A stretch of 64,000 nt of DNA, from IMG/VR virus record IMGVR_UViG_3300001242_000019, positions 1 through 64,000 of that record. One strand, written 5' to 3'. Source of the stretch: a virus. The position numbers and the translations under genes were made by a program. Shown piece after piece: positions 933-53,912 of the stretch; the stretch's first letter is position 1, and each line of letters begins with the position of its first letter. Under the pieces are notes generated by a model. It ran no database searches. It saw only the letters and a program-made list of their open reading frames with translations, and was not told the origin of the DNA.

Positions 933-3900
933 ATGAGTTCAACTATGTATGAAACCGCCATGACAACGAATGGGAATTCTTCGAGTGGTAATAATGTGCC
1001 ATTCGGAATCATTCAACCCGTTACGGTAACATGGACTCGCACAAATCAATATAAAATCTATGGATTAAGAATCATGCGCCAGAATAGTGGAACCGGTGAG
1101 ACAACGGTAGCAAGTTATGGATTAGTTACCGGCACAGCGTCAAGTCATACATTCCCGTATATCTCTTCAATGAGTCTTGAAGCTTATAAGGGCTATACGT
1201 ATTACTGGCAAGTTCGAGTTGGAGAGAGTATGAGTAGCTTTGGAGATTGGAGCGTACCGGTTTATTTTACAGTTCCCACTGCTCCGCCTAAGCCTGATCT
1301 ACTGAATTACAATGGACTAACCAGCGCAGCACCTGAAGTAGGTTATACTCAGGGTCTTACGTTTTCTTGGAACTATAATGAATACGACGGTTATGAACAA
1401 GCAGCCTTTAGACTCTTAGTCGCCGGACAATGGACTCCATGGATTCTTAGTTCGAATACTAGCTATACACATAGTGGCGTTGGTATATCGACGAATACTG
1501 TTCATTCATGGCAGGTTATGGTACGAGATACTATTGGCCTAGAAAGTCCAATTTCTAAGCAGGGTTATTTTAAAGTTATTACGTCTGTCATTGGCAATCC
1601 TACAAGTTATAATGGAGCATCATTAACGCCAGACCCCTGCGATACACTAACTCCGACGTTAACTTGGGATTGTATTGATCCGTCAGATACCGGTAAGACA
1701 CAAGGCTTTTTCAAGGTTGAGATGTTCTCTGGTAGCTATGGAAGTATAATTTACACTAATACTTCTGGATGGATTAATAGTTCTATCAATAGCTATATGA
1801 TTGATGAGACGTTCCCTTTAAAACTACTTGGAGATAGAAAGTATACTTGGCGTGTTACCTTAAAGACTCCAAGCGGTAGTCAGGGACCTACAAGTCCGTG
1901 GGTTAGTTTCCAAACCAGCGAAGCGTTAGTTAATCATCCGCCGAGTGCCACGTTAGTAAATTACAATGGATCTTCTTCTTCGAACCCCGTACTCGCTCAA
2001 GACACAACGCCGATTCTAACCTGGGATTATAATGATCCGGATAATGATCCACAAGGGTCTTATTCTGTCCGTGTCTATAATGCTTCAGGCGTATTAATCT
2101 CCTCACAGGGATGGACAGGAAGTTCTAATGATTACTTTAAGGTTCCTGATTCTCTATTAAATACAGGAACTATATATCATTGGAATGTTCAAGTTAAAGA
2201 CAGCCGTGGCCTTACGAGTCAAGTGTCTCCCATGGGATACTTTAAAACGCCGGGCGTTCCCGTTACTTTTGTTGTAACACCGAACAACTTAAATGGATCG
2301 GTCGGTAGTCCTGCGGCATGTAATACCTTATTGGCTCCAACCTTTAAATGGACTTTTACTGGAGCAACATCTCAAACAGCCTTTAGAGTAATAATCTATA
2401 ATGATCAGGGAGCTGTAGTTAGAGATACTAAGTTAACAAGTTCTTCAGCGGCGACCTATACGGCTACGAATTTAAAACTTGATCCATTAACAGTCTATTC
2501 CTGGACAGTACAGCTTAAGGATCCAAAATCAAATATGAGCTTAACAAGTTTCCCAGTTTACTTTAAGACCATTGACCGACCCCATACTAAACCAACCGTA
2601 AGTCCTACGAGCTTCTTAGGAACTTTGGCATCACCTAAGGATTGCACAACGTTAAACCCTACGTTTACTTGGACTTACAAAGATACTGACAATGATCCGC
2701 AGTCTGGTTTTAAGGTCTTAATTTATAAGGTCGGTAATACAACGCCTGTTAGTGCATCGACCGATGCTATAGATTATGAACCAAGTACTCTTAAGTACTA
2801 CACGCCTAAGACCTCTTCCTTAGAGTACAACACATTGTACTACTGGACGGTTCAAGTTAAAGATAATCAAGACGATGAGAGTCTCGTAAGTTCTCAAAAC
2901 TATTTCAAGACTCTACCTTCAATCGTTAATCATGTACCGGTAATTATCTTGTCAAGTTACAATGGTGATGAGTCTGAAGTATCAAGTTGTGATAATACGA
3001 TTCCCAGTTTAGCTTGGGAATATGAAGATCCCGACAATGATGTACAGTACAACTATAAAGTAGATATCTTCAGCAGTAGTAATACCCTTGTTCATACGAG
3101 CGGCACAGTTACTAGTTCAGCTCTTCGTTATGTTGTTCCTTTTGGTAAACTAGCACCAAGCACTACCTATCATTGGACCGTAGCAGTAAGCGATAAGCGC
3201 GGTGCTAAGGGATCACCGGTTCGCAGTGGCTATTTCAAAACCGGAACACCTCCTCCTAATGCGGCTCCTGTCGTTGTCCCTACGAGCTATAAAGGAACGA
3301 AGCTTGAGCCTGCAACTAGCACGACCTTGAAACCGGTCTTAACTTGGGAATACACTGACGCAGACAATGATACACAAGGTGCCTATCATGTTCAAGTCTT
3401 TACGGCCTCAGGGACACGAATTAAAGATTCTGGGTGGATTACTAGTTCTGCTAAAACCTACACGGTACCTAATGGAATCGTTGCTGGAACCGTCTATTAC
3501 TGGATCCTTCAAGTTAAGGATAAAAACAGTAGTGGAGAAGTCAGTATCATGACGGATCCTTGTTACTTTAAGTATAGTAGTGAAGCTGCTAATACCCCTC
3601 CTGTCGTAACGCCAACAAGCTATACCGGCACCTCAGCGGCTCCCTCTGTATCTAGTACTCTATTACCAACCTTGACATGGAGTTATAGCGATAAGGAAAA
3701 GAATCCACAGAAAACCTATACGGTTGTTATTAGGAATTCAGATGGTGTTGAGGTAATCAATACGGGAGCTATCACAAGTCAGAATCGTTACTATTCTGTT
3801 CCAAGTGCTAGTCGTCTACTTGAAGGTACGAATTATAACTGGAAAGTATCTGTAACGGATTCCACCGGGGCGGCGGCTGATGGTAGAGTATGTTATTTCA

Positions 3901-6900
3901 AAACCACGGGTACTAGTACAGTAGCTTCTCCTGATAAACCTGGACTAACTAGTTGTTATGGTACACTTTCTAATCCTACAGAAACAACTACGAAACCCAC
4001 GTTAACATGGACATATCATCATTCAAAGAATGTTCCACAAGGCTCTTACAAGCTGACGGTTTGCGCTGCTACGACAAATGCTACGGTCATTGATATTCCG
4101 TGGACATCCGGTGCCGCAACATCATATGATGTTACCTCTACAGTATTGAGTGAAGATGTAATGTACTACTGGAAGATTCAAGTCAAAGATACAAGTGGGC
4201 GTATGAGTCCTATAAGTTCTAATGGATATTTTAAGCCTACCTCAACTGAGATAAACAACCCTCCGACTGTTGTACTTTCAAGTTTCTGCGGAGAAACCAA
4301 AGAAGATCCTGATGCCTGTACGACTTTAACACCTGTACTATCCTGGGCCTATACGGATGCCGATAACGATATACAAAAATCCTTTAACGTAGGCATCATT
4401 GATGTTGAGACAGATGCCGTAGTGTATGATACTGGCATTGCGAATAGCCTATCTAAGAATACGGTCGTACCGGCAAACAAACTCACCAGTGGAAGAGTAT
4501 ACTCCTGGTATGTTACGGTATTTGATTCTAAGGGTAATAGCGGAGTAAGTTCAAAAGGATACTTTAAACCTATTTTTAATAGAGTACCTGTTGTCGTTAC
4601 GGCAAATTACAATGGACCTATTAACGCTCCTGTTATTTCTCCATCATATACTCCACTCTTCATTTGGAAGTACTCTGATCTTGATCGAGATATTCAAGTG
4701 TCGTACGTCGTTGATGTCTATAGTACGGCTGGAGTCTTGGTTTCGACGAGTGGCGCAATAGAGGATGAGCGGTATTATCATCTATTGACAACACCCTTGG
4801 CTGGAAATACAAGTTACTACTGGAAAGTTACCGTAACGGATTCTCAAGGAGGAGAAAGTGTTACGACTGCTCCTAGCTACTTTAAGACAACCGGTACTAA
4901 CAATAGTTTCCCAGTGGCTATTCCTAATAACTACAATGGCGATGTCACAAGTCCTAAGGAATGTCTCACCTTAACTCCTGCATTGACCTGGGATTATATC
5001 GATGCCGGTAAGAATCCACAAACATCGTATCTGGCTCAGATCTATGATTCTACCGGAACCATTGTATATAGTTCAAATTGGAAAACCAGTTCAGAGCAAT
5101 TCTGTATCACGAACGTTCCATTAACTGTAGGTACGCTTTACTATTGGGATATCTCAGTTAAGAATAGCAACAACATTCAGAGCCCTGTAGGTATCAAGGC
5201 TTACTTTAAACCAGTAGCTAGTACAAACAAAGCTCCTGATAAGCCAATCTTAACAAGCTATAATGGAACCGTGTCAACAGCCGTAATTTGCAACACATTG
5301 ATTCCTAAATTAAACTGGAGCTATTATGATCAAAACAATGATCCCGAGGGAGACTCCTTAGTTACGGTTTATGATTCAATCACGGGAGACTTAGTTTACT
5401 CTTCGAACTGGGTAAGTGGCGGTATCAAGGAGATCACGGTGCCCTCTGGAAAGATCCCTAATGCTAACAATACCTATAAATGGTGCGTTATCGTTAAGGA
5501 TAATAAAGGCCTAATAAGCCCTATGAGTAATTACGGTTACTTCTTCACAAGGGCAGCAACCAATACCTTACCTATTGTTACTCCGGCTAGTTATGCTGGC
5601 ACATTTGCTTCACCCTATTCTGCATCAACTCTAACACCGTCGTTGACCTGGACTTACTATCAAGCACAAAATAGTGATCAAGCGATGTTTAACATCATCG
5701 TATCAGACAATAGTAACACCATAGTCTGGGATTCGAATTGGGTTGTTGGTAGCGATGTAATGATTCAAGTGCCAGAGTCTAAGTTACTCGTGTCAGTCGT
5801 CTATCACTGGGTGATTCAGGTTAAAGATACGAACGGTAATCTAAGCAAAGTATCTGACCCGGTCTATTTCAAAACGGTTCTTGGTACGTCTCCCGTGGCA
5901 AGCCCAACTAATTTCAATGGAATTATCACAAACCCTGCTGCTTGCGATACCACATCTCCAAATTTGACATGGTCTTATTATCAAGCTCAGTCGAATCTAC
6001 AGGCGTCCTACTGCGTTTCCGTATACAATAGCAGTTTAGGGGTCGAGTATACTTCCGGCTGGACTGACGGCACTGCAACAACCGTTGTCGCTGGACCACT
6101 GGATTCGAATGAAACCTATCATTGGACCATCCAAGTCAAGGATACCACGGGTAACATGAGCGTTATTGATAAGCATGGTTATTTCAAGACACCCGAGAAC
6201 ACCAATAATCCTATCGTAACTTTAGAAAGCGATAATGGATCATTAGCTACTCCGTTTATTGATCAAAAATCCATTCCTAATTTCATGTTCCGTTATGTTC
6301 ATCCCTTAGCAAAGGATGCTAAGAAAAGCGTAATAACAATTTATGACGCTAGTAATACGGTTGTCTTCACTCGGACCGATACGGATACAATATATAGTCC
6401 ATGTGGAATCAGCTCCGGAATTGCCTTTACGCTAACTAAAGACGTCGTCTATCATTGGACAGTTGAAGTAACGGATGTAGACGATAACGTTGGAACCAGT
6501 AAGGCGGGCTACTTTAAACTAGCTCAAGGCAATCCAATTAGGGTTGCTGCTAAGTCTTACAATGGAACACAAGCTGCTCCTGCAGGATGTACGGGTTGTG
6601 TTTTATTTCCACCTGCTCTAACCTGGAGTTATATTGATCCCGTTAATAAGCCACAAGCTGCTTATAACGTCACGCTTTATAACGATCTTGGTGTTGTTAT
6701 CTATAATTCTGATTGGGTAACAAGCGCTTCTAAGTCTCGTACTATACCAAGTGGTAAACTAGTAGCCGGAACTACCTATCATTGGACGGTTCAAGTTAAG
6801 AACACTCTAGGTACGCTAAGTCCAAATAGTGATTTTGCTTACTTCCGAACAGAAGGTGGCACGGTTGTCTCGAATGCTTCGGTAACACTCATGACTTGTA

Positions 6901-7322
6901 ATGGAACTCTAACTACCCCAATTGTTACTATTCCAGACGATACGGACGTTACTATTGGCTGGAAGTATAATTGCAATACAGCCGTCAATGTCGCTAGTAC
7001 GACTTTAATAATCTATGATCCTAGTGACACGGTTGTTTGGACTAAAGATGTTGTGGCCTCAATGATTCCCGGTGATAGCGCAGTAGAACCTGCTGCAGTA
7101 TCTTTCTTTACTGAAGATGTTGTCTATCATCTTACGGCCGAAGTAACGGACGTCAATGGTAAGAAGACTATCTCTACTCCGGGTTATTTTACGGTTGAAC
7201 CCGCTGTTGTTGTTGAACCGACGATCACCTTATTAAGTCCTCTCGGAACCTTGTCTAGTCCATTATCAGTTGCCAATCCTGTAGATCATGTAGTTCATTT
7301 CACCTATCGTTATAATGATTAA
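933..7322 (+). CDS. Giant fibronectin-III-repeat fibre protein
   Basis: 2129 residues, ATG behind TTAGGAGG. The protein is almost entirely a tandem array of about 19 repeats of roughly 100-110 residues. Each repeat runs from a SYNGT..SP opening through LTPTLTWSY.D..NDPQ and YYW.VQVKD to a closing GYFKT. These are fibronectin-III/Ig-like beta sandwiches, as in long phage tail fibres or adhesion proteins. There is no signal peptide and no enzymatic motif. The final repeat stops after only its first strands (ending HFTYRYND), so the protein ends in half a domain. The two downstream genes begin with a segment resembling the missing half. Likely a long host-contact or tail-surface fibre. Confidence 0.85.
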   Translation: MSSTMYETAMTTNGNSSSGNNVPFGIIQPVTVTWTRTNQYKIYGLRIMRQNSGTGETTVASYGLVTGTASSHTFPYISSMSLEAYKGYTYYWQVRVGESMSSFGDWSVPVYFTVPTAPPKPDLLNYNGLTSAAPEVGYTQGLTFSWNYNEYDGYEQAAFRLLVAGQWTPWILSSNTSYTHSGVGISTNTVHSWQVMVRDTIGLESPISKQGYFKVITSVIGNPTSYNGASLTPDPCDTLTPTLTWDCIDPSDTGKTQGFFKVEMFSGSYGSIIYTNTSGWINSSINSYMIDETFPLKLLGDRKYTWRVTLKTPSGSQGPTSPWVSFQTSEALVNHPPSATLVNYNGSSSSNPVLAQDTTPILTWDYNDPDNDPQGSYSVRVYNASGVLISSQGWTGSSNDYFKVPDSLLNTGTIYHWNVQVKDSRGLTSQVSPMGYFKTPGVPVTFVVTPNNLNGSVGSPAACNTLLAPTFKWTFTGATSQTAFRVIIYNDQGAVVRDTKLTSSSAATYTATNLKLDPLTVYSWTVQLKDPKSNMSLTSFPVYFKTIDRPHTKPTVSPTSFLGTLASPKDCTTLNPTFTWTYKDTDNDPQSGFKVLIYKVGNTTPVSASTDAIDYEPSTLKYYTPKTSSLEYNTLYYWTVQVKDNQDDESLVSSQNYFKTLPSIVNHVPVIILSSYNGDESEVSSCDNTIPSLAWEYEDPDNDVQYNYKVDIFSSSNTLVHTSGTVTSSALRYVVPFGKLAPSTTYHWTVAVSDKRGAKGSPVRSGYFKTGTPPPNAAPVVVPTSYKGTKLEPATSTTLKPVLTWEYTDADNDTQGAYHVQVFTASGTRIKDSGWITSSAKTYTVPNGIVAGTVYYWILQVKDKNSSGEVSIMTDPCYFKYSSEAANTPPVVTPTSYTGTSAAPSVSSTLLPTLTWSYSDKEKNPQKTYTVVIRNSDGVEVINTGAITSQNRYYSVPSASRLLEGTNYNWKVSVTDSTGAAADGRVCYFKTTGTSTVASPDKPGLTSCYGTLSNPTETTTKPTLTWTYHHSKNVPQGSYKLTVCAATTNATVIDIPWTSGAATSYDVTSTVLSEDVMYYWKIQVKDTSGRMSPISSNGYFKPTSTEINNPPTVVLSSFCGETKEDPDACTTLTPVLSWAYTDADNDIQKSFNVGIIDVETDAVVYDTGIANSLSKNTVVPANKLTSGRVYSWYVTVFDSKGNSGVSSKGYFKPIFNRVPVVVTANYNGPINAPVISPSYTPLFIWKYSDLDRDIQVSYVVDVYSTAGVLVSTSGAIEDERYYHLLTTPLAGNTSYYWKVTVTDSQGGESVTTAPSYFKTTGTNNSFPVAIPNNYNGDVTSPKECLTLTPALTWDYIDAGKNPQTSYLAQIYDSTGTIVYSSNWKTSSEQFCITNVPLTVGTLYYWDISVKNSNNIQSPVGIKAYFKPVASTNKAPDKPILTSYNGTVSTAVICNTLIPKLNWSYYDQNNDPEGDSLVTVYDSITGDLVYSSNWVSGGIKEITVPSGKIPNANNTYKWCVIVKDNKGLISPMSNYGYFFTRAATNTLPIVTPASYAGTFASPYSASTLTPSLTWTYYQAQNSDQAMFNIIVSDNSNTIVWDSNWVVGSDVMIQVPESKLLVSVVYHWVIQVKDTNGNLSKVSDPVYFKTVLGTSPVASPTNFNGIITNPAACDTTSPNLTWSYYQAQSNLQASYCVSVYNSSLGVEYTSGWTDGTATTVVAGPLDSNETYHWTIQVKDTTGNMSVIDKHGYFKTPENTNNPIVTLESDNGSLATPFIDQKSIPNFMFRYVHPLAKDAKKSVITIYDASNTVVFTRTDTDTIYSPCGISSGIAFTLTKDVVYHWTVEVTDVDDNVGTSKAGYFKLAQGNPIRVAAKSYNGTQAAPAGCTGCVLFPPALTWSYIDPVNKPQAAYNVTLYNDLGVVIYNSDWVTSASKSRTIPSGKLVAGTTYHWTVQVKNTLGTLSPNSDFAYFRTEGGTVVSNASVTLMTCNGTLTTPIVTIPDDTDVTIGWKYNCNTAVNVASTTLIIYDPSDTVVWTKDVVASMIPGDSAVEPAAVSFFTEDVVYHLTAEVTDVNGKKTISTPGYFTVEPAVVVEPTITLLSPLGTLSSPLSVANPVDHVVHFTYRYND

Positions 7323-7337
7323 GGATCATTAATATTA

Positions 7338-7375
7338 TAGGACTAACTCGTGGGATATCCCACGAGTTAGTCCTA
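7338..7375. repeat. Perfect 38-bp palindrome between two fibre genes
   Basis: The 38 bases read the same on both strands, centred on GATATC (7354-7359), so the RNA can fold into a 17-bp stem with an AUAU tip. It starts 16 bases after the stop of the giant fibre gene and ends 18 bases before the next ATG. No T-run follows on either strand, so it is not a classical intrinsic terminator. It could be a processing or stability hairpin, an attenuating terminator, or a protein-binding site. It lies exactly where a fibronectin-like domain is split between two genes. Confidence 0.8.
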
Positions 7376-7392
7376 ATACTGGAGGTTATTAA

Positions 7393-7902
7393 ATGCCAAC
7401 AATGTTAAGTTCATTTATCAATATTTACGATAGTAATGATAGCCTAATTAAAACTATGGACTCAGTTGCCGGTACCTCTCGTGATTTTGATTTACTTGTT
7501 GACTGTAGCTTATTAATACTTGATGATACTTATTATTGGATTGCTACTGTTAATGATGGTAGTATCACAACTATCTCTGATAAGAGTTATTTTAAGATTG
7601 CTTCAAATTCACCACCGACTTGTACATTAACGTCTTACAATGGAACCATAGATAATCCAGCACCTATGACAACCTTAGATCCTATATTTACATTAGGCTA
7701 TAATGACCCTGATGGAGATACCGTGGATTCATGGGAAGCTTTTATTTATTCTATTGACGGAACACTTATTGAACACGTAACAGGTGGAACAATCGCGGGT
7801 CATTATCCAAATGGAGATTATTACTGGAATGGAAAAGTTAAAGACAGTCGAGGATTATGGGGTCCTTTGAGTGATAATGGTTACTTTAGAGTAACTGTAT
7901 AG
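7393..7902 (+). CDS. Short fibronectin-III-like fibre protein (half plus one repeat)
   Basis: 169 residues, ATG after GGAGG. The first 70 residues match only the second half of the repeat seen in the gene before (FINIYDSND, TYYWIATVNDG, DKSYFKIAS); one full repeat follows, ending GYFRVTV. The N-terminal half-domain is closely related to the start of the next protein (both share a RDFD motif and ISDKSYFKIA), so these two genes arose by duplication. Probably a fibre component that works with the giant fibre protein; the half-domain may pair with the half-domain at its C-terminus. Confidence 0.75.
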   Translation: MPTMLSSFINIYDSNDSLIKTMDSVAGTSRDFDLLVDCSLLILDDTYYWIATVNDGSITTISDKSYFKIASNSPPTCTLTSYNGTIDNPAPMTTLDPIFTLGYNDPDGDTVDSWEAFIYSIDGTLIEHVTGGTIAGHYPNGDYYWNGKVKDSRGLWGPLSDNGYFRVTV

Positions 7903-7913
7903 GAGGCTATTGA

Positions 7914-9119
7914 ATGGCAACAACGATAAGTACCGGGATCAGTATCTTTAAAGTTTCGGACGATAGTGAAGTTTACACTACGATTCCTCTCGTAAATACT
8001 AATCGAGACTTTGACATTACTGTTTCGACTGATCAATTAATCGTAAGTACGGATTATTACTGGACAGCTTCTGTAACGGACACTGTAACTGGAGCTACGA
8101 CTATCTCAGATAAGAGTTATTTTAAGATTGCTCCTATCCCAGGAATCGTTCACTTAACAAACTTTATCGGCACCCAAGAATCGCCCGTCGTTAGTACGAC
8201 ATTAACTCCAACATTAACTTGGAGTTGTAATTACTCACCGATTGATTTAGAGGTTCAGATACGCTTTATAGACGGTGCCGATACCTTCGTCGTCTTCTAC
8301 AATTCACTTGATAAGGACTTAAGATCACTATCAATTGATACGGCTATACCAACAAATATAACGAATGAGACTTCAGGAACACATACAATACCCACGGGTC
8401 CTTTAGTTTTAAAGAATGGTCTGGACTATCGATGGATGGTATGGGGCCATTTCGATCCATCCGTTGCAAGCGTTGAGACGGGATACATCCATATCACCTT
8501 GCCAAATCTTAATCCAAATGTTAGTCTATTAACATTTAACGGAACACAAGGTACTCCGAACGAGTGTAAATATATTAGACCAGTACTATCTTGGCATTAT
8601 ACTGATCCGGAAAACAATCCACAATCCAGCTATATTGTTAATGTCTATGACTCAGATGGCGTTAATGTCTTCCAGACAAACTGGATTAATAGTAGTGCTA
8701 CAAGTGTAACTCTACCAGCCACCACGTTAAATGCTGATAGCCTTTACTATTGGAACGTTCAAGTTATGGACAGTTATAACAATACGAGTGACATTAGTTC
8801 GGATGGTTACTTTATGACCGGTTTACCTCCCACATTGACAAGCTGTAATGGCCTTACGAGCGACGATCCTAATATCGTCAATACGATCCATCCGGTATGG
8901 AGCTGGAGTTATGATGAAGTGTGTTCAGTATTCGATGTAGTCTTTAATGATCCAACAGGCGCTACCGGTAAAATTGAGCAACCGAATATCGATAACACGT
9001 ATACATGCAATGAAGACGGAATAGTATTTGGCACAGTTTATTACTGGTGGGTCTATCTTACTAACGATAGCGGCATGACAAGTTTTCCAAGTGTAAGAGG
9101 TTACTGGAAAGCAGTCTAA
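7914..9119 (+). CDS. Fibronectin-III-like fibre protein (half plus three repeats)
   Basis: 401 residues, ATG after TAGGAGG, 11 bases after the previous stop. It begins with the same half-repeat as its upstream paralogue, then carries three full repeats: one divergent with a long insertion (about 75-200), one close to the consensus (SWHYTDPENNPQSSY), and a terminal one ending GYWKAV. The repeat pattern supports a fibre or adhesion role. No enzymatic motif is visible. Confidence 0.75.
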   Translation: MATTISTGISIFKVSDDSEVYTTIPLVNTNRDFDITVSTDQLIVSTDYYWTASVTDTVTGATTISDKSYFKIAPIPGIVHLTNFIGTQESPVVSTTLTPTLTWSCNYSPIDLEVQIRFIDGADTFVVFYNSLDKDLRSLSIDTAIPTNITNETSGTHTIPTGPLVLKNGLDYRWMVWGHFDPSVASVETGYIHITLPNLNPNVSLLTFNGTQGTPNECKYIRPVLSWHYTDPENNPQSSYIVNVYDSDGVNVFQTNWINSSATSVTLPATTLNADSLYYWNVQVMDSYNNTSDISSDGYFMTGLPPTLTSCNGLTSDDPNIVNTIHPVWSWSYDEVCSVFDVVFNDPTGATGKIEQPNIDNTYTCNEDGIVFGTVYYWWVYLTNDSGMTSFPSVRGYWKAV

Positions 9120-9157
9120 TTATCTATGAATAAGATTATTAGGAAAGAAGGATTACG

Positions 9158-11467
9158 ATGAACTCTATACAGCAAGCAAGTGTTGATTTGGAGGAGACTC
9201 AACGTAGGATTATTCTAGAGATTCTAAATCAACAATATACCGATGGAATTATTACAACCGAAGAAGATTATCAAAGTCAACTTCAAGAGATGCTTTCTAA
9301 GGTGAGTTCTAATGAGCCCATCATGCAAGTTAGGGAACAAAGTAATCAGTCGAATCCTAATAACTTCAACCTTAACTTTCAGGAGCTAAGTATTGATATG
9401 GCTACAATCTTTAATCAGATCAACCTAGTGGATAATACCGTGACAAAGCATCAGCAATTAAATCAGGGTGTTATTAACGATATCAAACTTAGAATCCATA
9501 AACTCAACGACGAGCTGGATCGGTTAGAACTTCTAAGTCTATACGGAGATAATTCTGGGATTATCTTAGAAGCCTTTAGGGATGCTAATAACTTTGAGAC
9601 GGATCTTCGCTATTACACGTCGGTACCAACCGGAGGGACTGATCCCGTACCATTAGCTTCGGGCTATATCTCAACACTTGATGTTAATAAAGAAGCAATT
9701 AAGTTACCACTGCTTTATTCAGAGAGCGCCCTGATCGGACCGAGTGGTATTAACCTGGGTAAGATTACTATTACTAAGCAATTGGGTTCTGGGTTTATCC
9801 GTGTTACGAATCCTGAGCATAACATTAATAAGGCCATTGACACGAGTTTTGAAACTTTCTGGTCTGAAACAATATTAACAGAGGCACCTCTAGAGGTGCC
9901 TCTGGACTCCAGCTACTTCGGCATTCAATATGGAGCCCTCTGTGAATTCGAAGTTAACTTTGATGCTCTAATGGTAATCAATGAAATTAGTCTAATGCCC
10001 TTTAGTGAATACCCTATGGATATTGTGGCGATTCGGTTTGATACGACCGACAGCAAGGATACTCCAAACTCCATTATTATTAAGCCGACTCATACTGATG
10101 GTACCGTCTATAATACCTCAACAACTGATCCGGTTATCTTTCAGTTTCCGGATACCTTAGTTAAGCGAGTACGCATTCAACTCAACCAACGTCACTATGT
10201 TCGTACAAATTATATTTCAAATAAGCAAGTGGCCGATGAGCTCGACCGGTGGTTTAATCGCAATACTGCCGTCGATCTAAAGACTGATGGTATCTTTAAT
10301 CCCATTTATACGAATCGAATAACAGTCAATCCATCATGGGTTTACTTTGCTGAAGCTATGAAAAATCTAGATATTAAGGGACTTGATAAGTTATTTAATT
10401 CCGTTCAAGTATCTAAATCACTGACCAAATATCAATATTCATATGGTTTATATAATATAGGAATGAATCGCAATGAGTATGTAAATTGCGGATACTATAT
10501 CTCCAAGCCTATGGATGTCCCAGGTAATATTAAGTCCGTAACATTACTCTCTAATGAAGAACACCCGCTGCCTAGCTCATATGATACAGCGATCACTCAT
10601 GTTGAATATTCTGTAAGTCCTGACGATGGTCTTAATTGGTACAATATTGTACCAATGAATCAATCCACGGTTATAGGAGAGCTCTTAGAGGCTGCTATTC
10701 CTAAGGGAGGTAGTCGACGTAAGGCAATGTTGAGGTTTCCAGTTGATGGAGACATTGATATCTATTGTAATGCCGCATCGACAAGACTTCCTAGTTCTGA
10801 CTATAACTTTGATCCGACTACTCGGACAATAACCTTTGTTAAATATGATGTTTCTAAAACCTATACGGTAAACTATAAACCTAAAGACTCACACGAAGTG
10901 GACTTTATTAAACTACATACTGTAATCAATAAAGTAACTAATCTTCCTGAGGTCTATCCTAATACCGTTACGGAGCGCTTTTTAGGTACTGATCGTAATG
11001 GCTTGATTAACCTAAGTTACTATCCCTTTATTGATAAGGTTAAGTTAAACTCTCAAAGTAAAGACTACGACCCAACGTACCTCAGTTACTCCTACGTTCC
11101 ACTGAAGATCAAATTAATTACGGCCGAAGGTAAACATATCGAACAAAAGACTGATCCGTCAGATACTGGTTTAATCTTTATTACGAATAAAACGGATTAC
11201 ATTAATCCTAACACTAGCTTTCTAGATCCTTTAACTGAAGTCGTAGACTCCAACGGTGTTATCACACTGGAGTATCAGTATCAAGTTATTGGCAATACAA
11301 TACAATTCAATACGTCACTTCCTGCTAACACACAAATTATTATAGAGTATCCTTATATTCTCAAAAACTTAAGAACTCGTGCTATACTTAGACGTACCAT
11401 CAATAACTTTCTTGGGCTTACTCCTATTGTCAATTCTATCACTGTCAATTTCAAATCCTTACTTTAG
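9158..11467 (+). CDS. Coiled-coil/discoidin-like tail or baseplate protein
   Basis: 769 residues, ATG after GAAGGA. The N-terminal 130 residues are helical and include a predicted coiled coil (about 75-130). A beta-rich domain follows around 195-350, with the layout of F5/8-type C (discoidin-like, carbohydrate-binding) domains: HNINKAIDTSFETFWSE, then hydrophobic strands and KRVRIQLNQRHYV. Further beta domains reach the C-terminus. It is the first of four proteins with this layout, in a row with tight spacing, which suggests paralogous subunits of one tail or baseplate structure that binds the cell surface. A 26-bp perfect palindrome lies within the coding sequence. Confidence 0.65.
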   Translation: MNSIQQASVDLEETQRRIILEILNQQYTDGIITTEEDYQSQLQEMLSKVSSNEPIMQVREQSNQSNPNNFNLNFQELSIDMATIFNQINLVDNTVTKHQQLNQGVINDIKLRIHKLNDELDRLELLSLYGDNSGIILEAFRDANNFETDLRYYTSVPTGGTDPVPLASGYISTLDVNKEAIKLPLLYSESALIGPSGINLGKITITKQLGSGFIRVTNPEHNINKAIDTSFETFWSETILTEAPLEVPLDSSYFGIQYGALCEFEVNFDALMVINEISLMPFSEYPMDIVAIRFDTTDSKDTPNSIIIKPTHTDGTVYNTSTTDPVIFQFPDTLVKRVRIQLNQRHYVRTNYISNKQVADELDRWFNRNTAVDLKTDGIFNPIYTNRITVNPSWVYFAEAMKNLDIKGLDKLFNSVQVSKSLTKYQYSYGLYNIGMNRNEYVNCGYYISKPMDVPGNIKSVTLLSNEEHPLPSSYDTAITHVEYSVSPDDGLNWYNIVPMNQSTVIGELLEAAIPKGGSRRKAMLRFPVDGDIDIYCNAASTRLPSSDYNFDPTTRTITFVKYDVSKTYTVNYKPKDSHEVDFIKLHTVINKVTNLPEVYPNTVTERFLGTDRNGLINLSYYPFIDKVKLNSQSKDYDPTYLSYSYVPLKIKLITAEGKHIEQKTDPSDTGLIFITNKTDYINPNTSFLDPLTEVVDSNGVITLEYQYQVIGNTIQFNTSLPANTQIIIEYPYILKNLRTRAILRRTINNFLGLTPIVNSITVNFKSLL
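9879..9904. repeat. 26-bp perfect palindrome inside a coding sequence
   Basis: Two 13-base arms (CAGAGGCACCTCT and its complement) abut directly inside the discoidin-like protein gene and encode TEAPLEVPL. Such an exact palindrome within a gene is unlikely to be conserved by coding need alone. It may be a binding site, an mRNA hairpin, or chance. Confidence 0.7.
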
Positions 11468-11478
11468 GAGGAACTAAC

Positions 11479-13221
11479 GTGAACTTAATGCTAATTAAGA
11501 ACAAAACAAGTCTTCTTGAGAATAAGGCAAAGGAGATCTTAAAGAATTTAAAGAATAAGAACTTCTCAACAGAGACCGAGATGTTTAGTTACTTCTTTGC
11601 ATCCCTACAAAACTTCTATGCTAATCTCGGGAAACCCACAATGCAACTTAGGCCGGCAAACGGAGCACCTATGAGCGCAGATTACAATCAATGCTTGCAT
11701 GAGATTTCTGCTGACACTAGTAGTATGCTTACCGAGAGTAATGCCTTAGTTAAAGCGCTGAGCGATCTCTATGAACAGGTTACACTGGATCGGTCGTCTC
11801 TTAACAATCAGCTTAAATCCCTAGAAGATAAATTAAGTATTATTAATCTAAAGCTAAATCAAAAGATCCATGAAGTAAACTTCCGTGATAGTTTTATTAA
11901 TCAGAAGACGTACGATACCGACATGGTGACCGCAACGCCTGCTAAGCTACATATTGGTGTGGGTATCCTAACTCTCAATACGATCGAAGCTAGTGAGATT
12001 ACAAATGCTACGATTCGTATCTTAGATAAATCTAATGGGTATCCAGGAGATACTCATCAAGTGCGGAATTTATCTGGTAAGACGAAGTTCTATGGTGAGG
12101 ATAACTTACACATTAACTTAGCTGAGATACTCGATGGTAACTCTGACACCTGGTTTGAATATGAACTGTTTAATATATCTGATACGGTTAGATCAAGCAT
12201 CTCAAGCTATGGTTTAACTTATAATGAAGGCCAAAGCTGGGCTAAGAATGACTCAACACCTATGACGCTTGCCTTAGAGATAGAACTTCCCATAGCAAAG
12301 ACATTAAACTTCCTAAGTCTTTCGCCTTATCTACCAAGTCAAAAAGGGGTTATTCCTTCTTATATAAAGAGTATTGTCGTCAGTGACGGTAAGGGAATCA
12401 CAAAGGAGCTTGTGAATAACGATCGCTTCAATGAAGATAAGGTTTATATGTTTGGTCAAATGAAGACCAAGAAGATCTTAATTACATTGGAACAATCGAT
12501 TAGCTATTTAACTCAAGTGGGACATTTCTTCTTTAAGGAACTACCGATCGCCTCAATGAATTACCTAGAGAAAGATAAACCTCAAGATGGTAAACGGGTG
12601 GATGGACCAAAGCCTAGTATTACAAATCTAGGTTTCATGTATGATCCATCCACCCGTAACTTAATTCAACCGGAAGTGACAAATGACTATACCGTAGGAA
12701 ATACAAATCAGATCATTAACAATCTATTCACACTCCCTGAAGTTCAAGACATCCAAGTCGGACTTGAGACAGTAGATGCTTGGCGCTATCAAATCGGACT
12801 ACGTGAAACACTAGGTGCTAACTATCGCTTTAATCAAGAGAGTGATTACGTCTCAACAAGTTTTACCTATACGAATCCCATCACAAGTATTCAGCTATTA
12901 GTTAAGGATGAAGTTCCTAAAGAGTTCCCTACAGGGAACTGGATCAATTACTTTATCAGTGTCGATGAGGGTAATAACTGGCATGCCATAGCGCCTAGTA
13001 ATCGTTCAAGTAGTGACGTAACAACATACATTTTAAATGCTAATATGCCAGAGGACGGTCGCATGGATTATAGTGGCTATATCGATACAAAAGATCCAGT
13101 GACAAGTGTTCGTTTAAAGATTAGTCTATCAAGGCCTACAGACATTATTGATGCAGATTATTACAGTCCAATTGTCTATAATTATGAGCTTAAATGTACA
13201 GTTGAAAGCGGTGTTAACTAA
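11479..13221 (+). CDS. Coiled-coil/discoidin-like structural protein, paralogue 2
   Basis: 580 residues, GTG start behind TAGGAGG. Layout as in the preceding gene: helical N-terminus with a coiled coil (about 75-140), then a beta domain with the hallmark NLAEILDGNSDTWFEYE around 210-230, and a second beta module to the end. Its stop overlaps the next ATG by one base (TAATG), so the genes are translationally coupled. Likely a tail or baseplate subunit. A 13-bp inverted repeat lies in the middle of the gene. Confidence 0.65.
   Translation: MNLMLIKNKTSLLENKAKEILKNLKNKNFSTETEMFSYFFASLQNFYANLGKPTMQLRPANGAPMSADYNQCLHEISADTSSMLTESNALVKALSDLYEQVTLDRSSLNNQLKSLEDKLSIINLKLNQKIHEVNFRDSFINQKTYDTDMVTATPAKLHIGVGILTLNTIEASEITNATIRILDKSNGYPGDTHQVRNLSGKTKFYGEDNLHINLAEILDGNSDTWFEYELFNISDTVRSSISSYGLTYNEGQSWAKNDSTPMTLALEIELPIAKTLNFLSLSPYLPSQKGVIPSYIKSIVVSDGKGITKELVNNDRFNEDKVYMFGQMKTKKILITLEQSISYLTQVGHFFFKELPIASMNYLEKDKPQDGKRVDGPKPSITNLGFMYDPSTRNLIQPEVTNDYTVGNTNQIINNLFTLPEVQDIQVGLETVDAWRYQIGLRETLGANYRFNQESDYVSTSFTYTNPITSIQLLVKDEVPKEFPTGNWINYFISVDEGNNWHAIAPSNRSSSDVTTYILNANMPEDGRMDYSGYIDTKDPVTSVRLKISLSRPTDIIDADYYSPIVYNYELKCTVESGVN
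12594..12657. repeat. 13-bp inverted repeat with nested hairpin in coding sequence
   Basis: ACGGGTGGATGGA at 12594-12606 is exactly complementary to 12645-12657, with 38 bases between. A smaller CCTAG/CTAGG pair (12613-12617 and 12628-12632) lies inside the loop. The arms encode unrelated amino acids in a structural protein. Function unknown. Confidence 0.6.
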
Positions 13222-15212
13222 TGAGTATACGTGATCGACAACTAATCCGTGCTAGTAATAGGGCCTTAAGCTCTGAGTTATTAGCCGGTCGGTTCCCGGA
13301 TCTTACAACGATTCAAGACAGTGTTTTCAATGAGATCCGTAATCGTCCTATAGGGTTACCTAGATTTGAATTACAGGCTGTTGCCGAAGGAGACATCAGC
13401 TCATCACTAAGTTATAACACGATGATGAATCAGATCTTTGAAGACCTAAATACTATGTTTGATGAGTCCGGTTATCAAACGGATCGTCTCATGGCGGTGG
13501 TTAATTACTATGAGACAGAGAAAGCTCTGATTCAAATGCAGTTGAAGCGCTTAAATAATCGTATGGATGGACTTATTGATAAGCTTAGTCATAATGTACG
13601 GTCTAATGTTATCTTCGATACCTTCCAGGATTTCCAGAACGTTGAGTTTATTGGCAGAGCTCAAGTCAACCGACCCAATACTGATGCCTTTATTGATTTA
13701 CTTAAAGGAGAAGCTGTCTTAAATAAGATTAGTAATGGAGACCGGATTGATTTAAGTAAGGCAGAGATCAGTGTAACTCCAATAACATCCTACGTAACAA
13801 ATACTGAGTTAAGTAAACCTAATCTCATGTTAACAGATATTATTAATGAGACGTGGCGTCAGCTTATAGTAACTGACAATGACTTACCGGTAACGCTGCA
13901 AATTGATATAGCTTTAGATAGTGAAGTATCCATCACGAGTTTTAGCTTTGAAAGCAACAGCCCCAAATCAACGGACATCACCTTGTCTATTTCTTCGGAT
14001 GGTATAATCTATCAACCATATAATAAACAGTCCGGAGGATTCGTGCAGTGGAGTTTTAACACAGTGAGCGCTAAGGCCTTAAGACTCACTCTGACTAAAT
14101 ATGAAGCAGATGAAACGACAGGCACTAATAACAACTATCTATTCGGATGCAAATCTTTAGCGATCTATAAGGAAGCTTATAAGGAACGTGGCATTGTAGT
14201 TAGTCGTCAATACTACATAGGCAACGAGGCTATTGATCGTATTACATTACAAGTCGATTCTAGTTTACCATCCAATACCGACATTCGTTATTATATTGCC
14301 ATCGACAATGATGACCTCTTTGAATGGCAGGAGATTCAACCTAATGTACCTCATGATATGGGCGGGATGAAATCAACTACCTTTGGTATTGATAGCTTCT
14401 ATAAAGGCTATGGATCAAAGGTAAATAGTCAGTATGGTAATGACTATTATAATATTGCCGATATTCCTTATGCTATTATGCCTGGATCCGCCCTTCTTTA
14501 CATGGGCGAAAACATGTGGCAGCACGATCTTTACAATTCACCCATCAGTGTGCTGGATAATCCAAGTTTAAAGGACTGGATTAAGATGAGCGGATATACT
14601 ACGAATTATATTCCTCTTAATGCACCTATGAAGATCTTAAAGAACTGTAAGCAGCGCTTTACGGTAAACCTCTATTGCGAAACGGCAAACATTATTGATC
14701 ATAATGTGATTCAAGTAACCGAAGGATTATCTAGTAACGTGAAGTTTAATGTCTATTTAAATAACAATCTTATTAAAGCCGTGGGAGATTACTATACGTA
14801 TTACTTGAGGGCGGGCTGGAATAAGATTCAGATTATTACAAGTGCCATTGACGATACTACAATCGATAAGGGATTTAATCTAACGTATGTATCGAATAAG
14901 GTCTATGCTAGTAATGACCCATTACGTGAGACTAGTCTTTATAACCTACTAAATAATACAAGCAAACGAGATCATACGAACTTTGCCATTGATACTGCCG
15001 AGGTAGCTGGTAAGACTATAAGCAGTATCATTGTTAATTACGACCCTAGAGCAATCGACTCTACCGGTGCAGGAGTCATGTATAACTTAACCTATAAACG
15101 CCCTGTATTACAGGATCAAAATGCTTTGCGATTTATGGCAATTTTAAGTCGAGACCCTAGCTTTAAAGACATATCTCCAAGTCTACGTAGTTATCAAATC
15201 ATTGTAGAGTAA
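13221..15212 (+). CDS. Coiled-coil/discoidin-like structural protein, paralogue 3
   Basis: 663 residues. Helical N-terminus with coiled coil at about 70-130 (ETEKALIQMQLKRLNNRMDG), a discoidin-like beta domain at about 190-310 (ETWRQLIVTDNDLPVTLQID), then further beta-rich modules. It continues the series of related tail/baseplate proteins and overlaps the previous gene by one base. Likely a virion protein with a surface- or sugar-binding role; no enzyme motif seen. Confidence 0.65.
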   Translation: MSIRDRQLIRASNRALSSELLAGRFPDLTTIQDSVFNEIRNRPIGLPRFELQAVAEGDISSSLSYNTMMNQIFEDLNTMFDESGYQTDRLMAVVNYYETEKALIQMQLKRLNNRMDGLIDKLSHNVRSNVIFDTFQDFQNVEFIGRAQVNRPNTDAFIDLLKGEAVLNKISNGDRIDLSKAEISVTPITSYVTNTELSKPNLMLTDIINETWRQLIVTDNDLPVTLQIDIALDSEVSITSFSFESNSPKSTDITLSISSDGIIYQPYNKQSGGFVQWSFNTVSAKALRLTLTKYEADETTGTNNNYLFGCKSLAIYKEAYKERGIVVSRQYYIGNEAIDRITLQVDSSLPSNTDIRYYIAIDNDDLFEWQEIQPNVPHDMGGMKSTTFGIDSFYKGYGSKVNSQYGNDYYNIADIPYAIMPGSALLYMGENMWQHDLYNSPISVLDNPSLKDWIKMSGYTTNYIPLNAPMKILKNCKQRFTVNLYCETANIIDHNVIQVTEGLSSNVKFNVYLNNNLIKAVGDYYTYYLRAGWNKIQIITSAIDDTTIDKGFNLTYVSNKVYASNDPLRETSLYNLLNNTSKRDHTNFAIDTAEVAGKTISSIIVNYDPRAIDSTGAGVMYNLTYKRPVLQDQNALRFMAILSRDPSFKDISPSLRSYQIIVE

Positions 15213-15224
15213 GGAGTGATTATC

Positions 15225-15464
15225 ATAAATATCTATCCATCCATGGTAAGAACCAATATGCGTCGTCGCGGACCTATAGAGTCTCAGAAACTAAATCGCA
15301 ATAACCAGGATTTAGTTTACAACATAACCTATCTATGTGAACAGTTAAATTTACTAAAGGCGAATCTTAACAGTTTAGAAGCTTCAATTTATGATCGTAG
15401 TAACCTTATAAGTTCTAAACTTAAGATAATTAAGACGATAGGAGGTGAATTAATGAATGTCTAA
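15225..15464 (+). CDS. Small coiled-coil protein, probable AUA start
   Basis: About 79 residues, mostly helical (LVYNITYLCEQLNLLKANLN), resembling the coiled-coil segment of its larger neighbours without the beta domain. Start choice: a good ribosome site AAGGAG at 15211-15216 is followed after 8 bases by ATA at 15225. The GTG at 15216 overlaps the ribosome site and the first ATG (15243) is 26 bases away. The leader AAGGAGTGATTATC is identical to the one before the gene ending at 31851, where GTG occupies the same spot. The 3' end overlaps the next gene by 8 bases. Confidence 0.55.
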   Translation: MNIYPSMVRTNMRRRGPIESQKLNRNNQDLVYNITYLCEQLNLLKANLNSLEASIYDRSNLISSKLKIIKTIGGELMNV

Positions 15465-16638
15465 TATACCTGCTTTAACAAAACAGCAAGTTGCCTTTAG
15501 GAGTCCAACAAGCAGCGAAGCTTATAATAAGCAGCTCGATGATTCCTTCTTTGATGTTGTTAATCTCTATAACAATCTAAATACCTATACGAATCAATTA
15601 AATACCCTAAGGGATATCTACACGATCCAAAGTCAGTTTCAAGATATGCGTATTAAAGATCTCGAAGACAAGACAAGGATCCTGCAAGATAAGATCGATC
15701 TATTAAATGGACTTAATAGCTCCATTACAAGTCGTGCCTTTGTGGAAGACTTAACTGTTGATTCCATTGCGGAAGCCTCCGAGCGAGCTGAGATCGATAT
15801 GTTTCATAGGGTTGTTACACTACCAATCGTTCGTAGAACATCAAAGGTTTACCTATACGATGAAGACTATGATCAGATTATTATCCCTTCAACGTTAGGT
15901 GTTACACTGAATCCGGCCGCCAGTGACGGCTTTATTGTTGATACGGATCTGTTAAATGCCTTTGATGGTATTAACTCAAATTATTGGATGCGTAAGGTCT
16001 TAATCTCTCCAAACGATACAACCTCGAAGGCTACTGTCCAAGTAGAGATTACCTTACCAGACAATATCATTTCTAATCGTGACGTAAATACGATTATCAT
16101 TCATCCATTTCCACTAAACTCACTTGATATCACGGAAGTTAAATACAAACTTGACGGTGGATGGATAACAGTCCCTGGATTTGAACCTATTATTAAGGCA
16201 GGTAATATTGAACTATGCTTTGCTTCTTTAAAGATTGCGAAGGTTCGAGTAACAATGGTTCAAAATACCGCTCATAGTGAAAACGGTAAAAAGGTATTCT
16301 ATCTAGGTGCCGAAGAGATTGGGATCTATCATACAGAGTATGGTGTCAAGGGAAGCTTTAGGGCATCGTTTAATTTAGATGGCAAGGAAGGATTAAAGAC
16401 CATCACGGAGATCAAACCTATCTTCTCTAATACGAAGGCTTTAAATGCCAACCTTGATATGCGTAACTTGTTTACCTACAACCTCTATACCGTAAGTAAT
16501 GGAGAGTTTCAATATACTAAGGACTCACTACCTATTCCAACGACTGAAACTAAAGTCGTTCTTGATGGTATGATCTTACTTGATCCAAATAATCAAGCAA
16601 CGCCTGCACTAGAAAGTGTAGAACTGGTCTATAAGTAG
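15457..16638 (+). CDS. Coiled-coil/discoidin-like structural protein, paralogue 4
   Basis: 393 residues, ATG after AGGAGGTG, overlapping the small coiled-coil gene by 8 bases. Coiled coil at about 30-90 (RIKDLEDKTRILQDKIDLLN), then a beta domain with DLLNAFDGINSNYWMRK and strand pairs as in its paralogues. It is the shortest full member of the series and the last before the lysis genes. Probably a tail/baseplate subunit. Confidence 0.65.
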   Translation: MSNIPALTKQQVAFRSPTSSEAYNKQLDDSFFDVVNLYNNLNTYTNQLNTLRDIYTIQSQFQDMRIKDLEDKTRILQDKIDLLNGLNSSITSRAFVEDLTVDSIAEASERAEIDMFHRVVTLPIVRRTSKVYLYDEDYDQIIIPSTLGVTLNPAASDGFIVDTDLLNAFDGINSNYWMRKVLISPNDTTSKATVQVEITLPDNIISNRDVNTIIIHPFPLNSLDITEVKYKLDGGWITVPGFEPIIKAGNIELCFASLKIAKVRVTMVQNTAHSENGKKVFYLGAEEIGIYHTEYGVKGSFRASFNLDGKEGLKTITEIKPIFSNTKALNANLDMRNLFTYNLYTVSNGEFQYTKDSLPIPTTETKVVLDGMILLDPNNQATPALESVELVYK

Positions 16639-53870: not shown

Positions 53871-53912
53871 ATACAGATAACCCGTGCTTAATTAAGCACG
53901 GGTTATCTGTAT
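53871..53912. repeat. Perfect 42-bp palindrome after the dUTPase gene
   Basis: Arms of 21 bases are exact complements centred on TTAATTAA. It begins at the dUTPase stop codon (53912) and separates it from the phosphatase unit. The RNA would form a 19-bp stem with a minimal tip. No T-run follows. Similar in build to the palindrome at 7338-7375, but of different sequence. Confidence 0.8.

Follow-up and report, generated by a model that had tools for sequence, protein, structure and literature searches.

The 64,000-nt window analysed here is part of a 117,365-base viral contig (IMGVR_UViG_3300001242_000019). The genes at 933-16638 share one orientation, and a cassette of fibre and structural-protein genes is among them, the proteins encoded at 9158-16638 returning matches to PHROG virion structural families. 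Upstream of the giant fibre gene (G), the product of gene 237-893 matches two PHROG families of unknown function (phrog_4368 and phrog_30025) over its C-terminal ~75 residues. G is followed by two shorter genes, g2 and g3, and the features relevant to their relationship are given below with the evidence for each.

933-7322, + strand: G, giant fibre gene (ORF; PF25788 profile match; repeat profile over the contig)
7194-7319, + strand: first half-domain, strands A-B, 42 aa, at the C-terminus of G (profile columns 4-39; AF2)
7320-7392, + strand: gap of 73 nt between G and g2 (sequence; frame-by-frame reading)
7338-7375, no strand: perfect palindrome of 38 bp, 19-bp arms, no loop (sequence; RNA fold z = -6.1)
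7381-7385, + strand: g2 ribosome-binding site GGAGG, 7 nt before the ATG (sequence)
7393-7902, + strand: g2, 169 aa, second half-domain plus one complete repeat (ORF; repeat profile)
7393-7596, + strand: second half no. 1, strands C-G, 68 aa (profile columns 48-109; AF2 of g2)
7567-7602, + strand: 36-nt patch encoding TTISDKSYFKIA (34/36 identical to 8097-8132)
7902-7906, + strand: g3 ribosome-binding site GGAGG (sequence; shares its first base with the g2 stop codon, 7900-7902)
7914-9119, + strand: g3, 401 aa, second half-domain plus three more repeats (ORF; Pfam; repeat profile)
7914-8126, + strand: second half no. 2, strands C-G, 71 aa (profile columns 49-109)

G encodes a protein of 2129 aa composed of about 19 complete Ig/FN3-like repeats of ~110 aa and a final half repeat. 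The Pfam family PF25788 (Ig_Rha78A_N) matches G in 14 stretches (E=1.9e-130) and also matches g3 (E=9.8e-16), both over the family cut-off; g2 returned no match in the Pfam search. In g3, the first of the three further repeats carries an insertion.

A domain divided between gene ends

An earlier reading made from the sequence alone had proposed that the giant fibre ends after the first strands of a fibronectin-like repeat and that each of the next two genes opens with a related second half. Both proposals are borne out by a repeat profile (109 columns) that was built from this fibre's own repeats and used to place the half-domains: the tail of G occupies columns 4-39, the start of g2 columns 48-109 and the start of g3 columns 49-109. 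The fragments are thus complementary and jointly cover one domain, with a break in the B-C loop; the tail stops at column 39 and the second halves match from column 48 or 49 after 6-8 loop residues. With g2, the lengths sum to one repeat (42+68 = 110 aa). When all six frames of the 117-kb contig were scanned, one first half and two second halves were found at gene ends, and no other.

Scored alone, the G tail reaches 13.4 bits, the g2 half 28.5 and the g3 half 29.9, while the joined sequences score higher than either half (tail+g2, 46.0 bits; tail+g3, 48.3 bits). Both joined domains have hydrophobic residues at 15/18 core columns, compared with 15-18 in the intact repeats. As a single domain, the G tail is marginal (E=7.8 in the whole-contig scan), so its assignment leans on context, namely its position directly after 19 repeats and its raising of both joined scores. 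The tail, the g2 half and the g3 half each have a different best-matching repeat, and visible descent of the split domain from a neighbouring repeat was therefore rejected. Complementary boundaries arise automatically with any gene split and do not by themselves prove function.

AF2 modelling of the last repeat of G together with the tail (mean pLDDT 84.5) gave a full domain followed by just two strands, A and B. In the model of g2 alone, the half-domain consists of strands C, C′, F and G in an open sheet without strand E, with lower confidence around residues 21-40, and is followed by a confidently predicted full second domain (mean pLDDT 88.9). Both alignments consisted of this fibre's own repeats and the halves were modelled as single chains; because the alignments come from paralogous repeats, the models can identify the strands of each half but give no information on binding between the halves. 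The earlier reading had named independent folding of the halves as an outcome that would count against a shared fold. In the models this does not occur in any simple sense, each half being predicted as an open half-sandwich. In a whole FN3 fold, strand E pairs with strand B; the strand that is absent from the model of the g2 half would accordingly pair with one that G holds. Used as a query in fold searches, the g2 model retrieved FN3/Ig modules from adhesins and from phage tail proteins.

The junction between G and g2

The reading frame of G meets five in-frame stops within the gap (7320, 7338, 7344, 7368 and 7374), and a TAA at 7390 in the g2 frame lies directly before the g2 ATG. The G and g2 frames do not share the open overlap expected of a programmed frameshift or readthrough, and fusion by either route is impossible given the five stops, the TAA and the separate ribosome-binding sites of the downstream genes. 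In RNA, the palindrome at 7338-7375 forms a strong hairpin immediately 5′ of the g2 ribosome-binding site; it has no U-tract and is absent from the terminator listing.

We considered whether the chains might nonetheless be joined covalently in expression, by translational bypassing over the 73-nt gap, by frameshift or readthrough, by an RNA intron or by a split intein. The stop that directly follows the final codon of G, together with the strong hairpin of the gap, is reminiscent of T4 gene 60, in which a stop and a hairpin lie between two coding parts that are joined by translational bypassing. Unlike gene 60, however, the genes here have separate ribosome-binding sites and no usefully placed matched landing codon: take-off would be from the GAT at 7317, and the only in-frame GATs in g2 are at 7429 and 7438, where landing would delete strand C, so that no matched pair of codons restores both frame and domain. 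The 73-nt gap gave no credible Rfam match (matches fell below the gathering scores and were treated as chance), and Pfam returned no intein match for G, g2 or g3, the chain ends at this point being repeat halves. Furthermore, g3 has the same start structure without a hairpin. Covalent joining is on these grounds highly improbable, frameshift and readthrough being excluded by the stops. The hairpin probably acts on the mRNA, through processing or by setting the levels of g2 and g3 relative to G.

An assembly or sequencing artefact that broke a continuous fibre gene is scarcely credible. The locus is represented by a single metagenomic IMG/VR contig with no second genome for comparison, but a 38-bp palindrome, several stops, two well-spaced GGAGG motifs and two homologous start regions go beyond what one slip could produce, and the g2 and g3 halves have diverged under selection. 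The earlier reading had allowed for a stop codon created by sequencing error; the homologous ribosome-binding and start sites and the five in-frame stops in the gap make this very unlikely.

Other loopless perfect palindromes occur in the window at 53871-53912 (42 bp), 9879-9904 (26 bp) and 10635-10656 (22 bp), the latter two inside a gene for a 769-aa structural protein; the longer ones are far beyond chance expectation. A telomere-resolvase account of the palindrome in the gap was rejected, as no match to PF16684 was found.

Duplication and divergence of the second halves

The suggestion that the two second halves are paralogues is supported: each scores highest against the other (local score 147, z about 21), ahead of the best other repeat (85). 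The similarity extends to their start regions: 7377-7412 (g2) and 7898-7933 (g3) are identical at 28/36 nt, which ranks first among 10,153 gene pairs of the contig (mean 12.5, sd 3.0, next best 24). The start site was most likely duplicated together with the half-domain, so that the most likely order of events is a split followed by the duplication from which g2 and g3 arose.

Within the otherwise diverged halves, the patch at 7567-7602, which corresponds to the ISDKSYFKIA region pointed out in the sequence-only reading, is near-identical, probably as a result of recent gene conversion or recombination of g2 with g3. Outside this patch, 82/171 nt differ and 22/57 residues are identical, against 13.4 +/- 2.4 under neutral simulation (P=3e-4); likewise, the BLOSUM score of 106 compares with a simulated 22 +/- 17 and was reached in 0/6000 simulations. 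This similarity beyond the neutral expectation shows that both half-domains have been maintained as halves by purifying selection after the duplication.

The direct repeats at 7377/7898 (28/36, 521 bp apart) and 7567/8097 (34/36, 530 bp apart) flank the g2 unit and raise the possibility of a recombinational cassette, in which deletion, amplification or exchange would switch tips at the DNA level. The unusually high identity of the second repeat suggests past gene conversion. However, the repeats are of limited length, the analysis identified neither a recombinase here nor any variant contig, and we regard a cassette of this kind as improbable; it could in any case add to a shared-domain explanation rather than replace it. 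Separately, recombination at the 36-nt patch could allow loss or amplification of the 530-bp g2 unit.

Selection also bears on whether the arrangement is simply the relic of a gene split. On that account, G lost its last C-terminal repeats, and the half-domains of g2 and g3 were reused, for dimerisation of their own or attachment elsewhere, without completing G. This is a realistic possibility, if not a probable one. The G tail is weak alone (13 bits), and the selection signal covers the g2 and g3 halves and says nothing about the tail. Against a relic, the core-facing residues are kept on both sides of the break, the g2 and g3 halves hold the fold signature under selection after the split, and the hydrophobic face of a half-sandwich left exposed would be expected to be lost.

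A possible shared domain acting as a tip coupling

The alternative to a relic that we favour, and which we consider close to evenly balanced between true and false, is a single split Ig/FN3-like domain formed jointly by separate chains, G on one side and g2 or g3 on the other, and serving as a tip coupling. The C-terminus of G would contribute strands A-B, and strands C-G would come from the N-terminus of g2 or g3. The two halves would most likely fold together non-covalently into one beta-sandwich, which may join a distal tip to the giant fibre in line with it. The tip would be one extra domain long with g2 and three with g3, if both partners are used. The complementary anatomy, the separate frames, the homologous start sites of g2 and g3 and the selection on their halves support a shared domain. 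Against it stand the poor conservation of the tail on its own, the fact that one genome is known and no relative shows the split to be maintained, and the presence of two second halves for one first half, which leaves the stoichiometry unexplained.

Known systems offer partial parallels. Multi-gene phage tail fibres such as T4 gp34-gp37 are likewise long and built of several gene products end to end; the T4 joints are complete trimeric domains, whereas here two halves of one domain would meet at the joint. In chaperone-usher pili, a neighbouring subunit supplies in trans what an Ig-like fold lacks (donor-strand complementation), with one strand donated by an N-terminal extension and with the participation of a chaperone and an usher. 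The present fold is also an incomplete Ig-like one; in contrast to the pili, two plus five strands are split between gene products, and the setting is a phage structural cassette.

The closest analogue is the engineered split FN3 domain, pilus strand complementation being comparable more loosely. PMC11666773, which cites Dutta et al. 2005, describes an FN3 monobody that was divided at a loop into residues 4-45 and 46-98; mixing the two fragments is enough for them to reassemble without a peptide bond, a physical precedent for the proposed joint. The same source gives a melting temperature of about 45 C for the split form vs about 78 C unsplit, and about 10-fold weaker target binding. In both cases an FN3-type beta-sandwich is cut in a loop into an N- and a C-terminal fragment. 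The engineered cut is placed in the CD loop in that account, whereas here the cut lies in the B-C loop of a natural PF25788-type phage-fibre repeat and assembly is proposed. By analogy with the engineered domain, a joint of this type may lack the strength that a load-bearing fibre needs, a further point against sharing.

A more far-reaching version, which we think rather unlikely, is a natural split beta-sandwich coupling in which one docking half and two duplicated partners with tips of differing length would give combinatorial fibres without DNA inversion or mutation. If the halves bind, the locus would be a natural counterpart of the engineers' split FN3 domains, docking exchangeable tips on a phage fibre; repeat-rich fibre genes could then be divided and diversified by duplicating a half-domain with its start site, and the small docking pairs would be open to testing. 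If they do not, the locus remains a clear example of a fibre gene that was divided within a domain and has been retained in that form.

Related loci

Searches of phages and IMG/VR, from which very close records may have been masked, found no related phage with this fibre, either split or unsplit. At the DNA level, the split region had no match in phages, and DNA pattern searches were also empty. G had no match in IMG/VR, and g3 had none in phages or IMG/VR apart from weak repeat-level hits in phages at a loose limit only. Weak repeat-level matches were to Brevibacillus phage Emery and to a Paenibacillus sonchi plasmid gene, the context of which is unlike a phage.

The structural cassette further downstream has conserved counterparts in Moorella phage MTATph1, Bacillus phage KLEB27-3 and 12 IMG/VR loci, and the repeat array is absent from all of these cassette relatives. 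Immediately upstream of the cassette, eight related phages encode a protein with a conserved C-terminal segment of ~50 aa (ITPKGL...SHFILEKWD...PYDG..G; loci L018-L022, L024, L026 and L016:14026-14937). We rejected this segment as a half FN3 domain: it has no Pfam match, its profile matches Kelch repeats in PDB, and comparison with FN3-type profiles gave no alignment (hhalign probability below 5%), the FN3 likeness being by eye only. One contig, IMGVR_UViG_2889049205_000001, carries the same cassette region at both ends of its 228,841 bases (L023 and L026), perhaps representing the terminal overlap of a circular genome, and its giant fibre gene appears to be broken into several ORFs.
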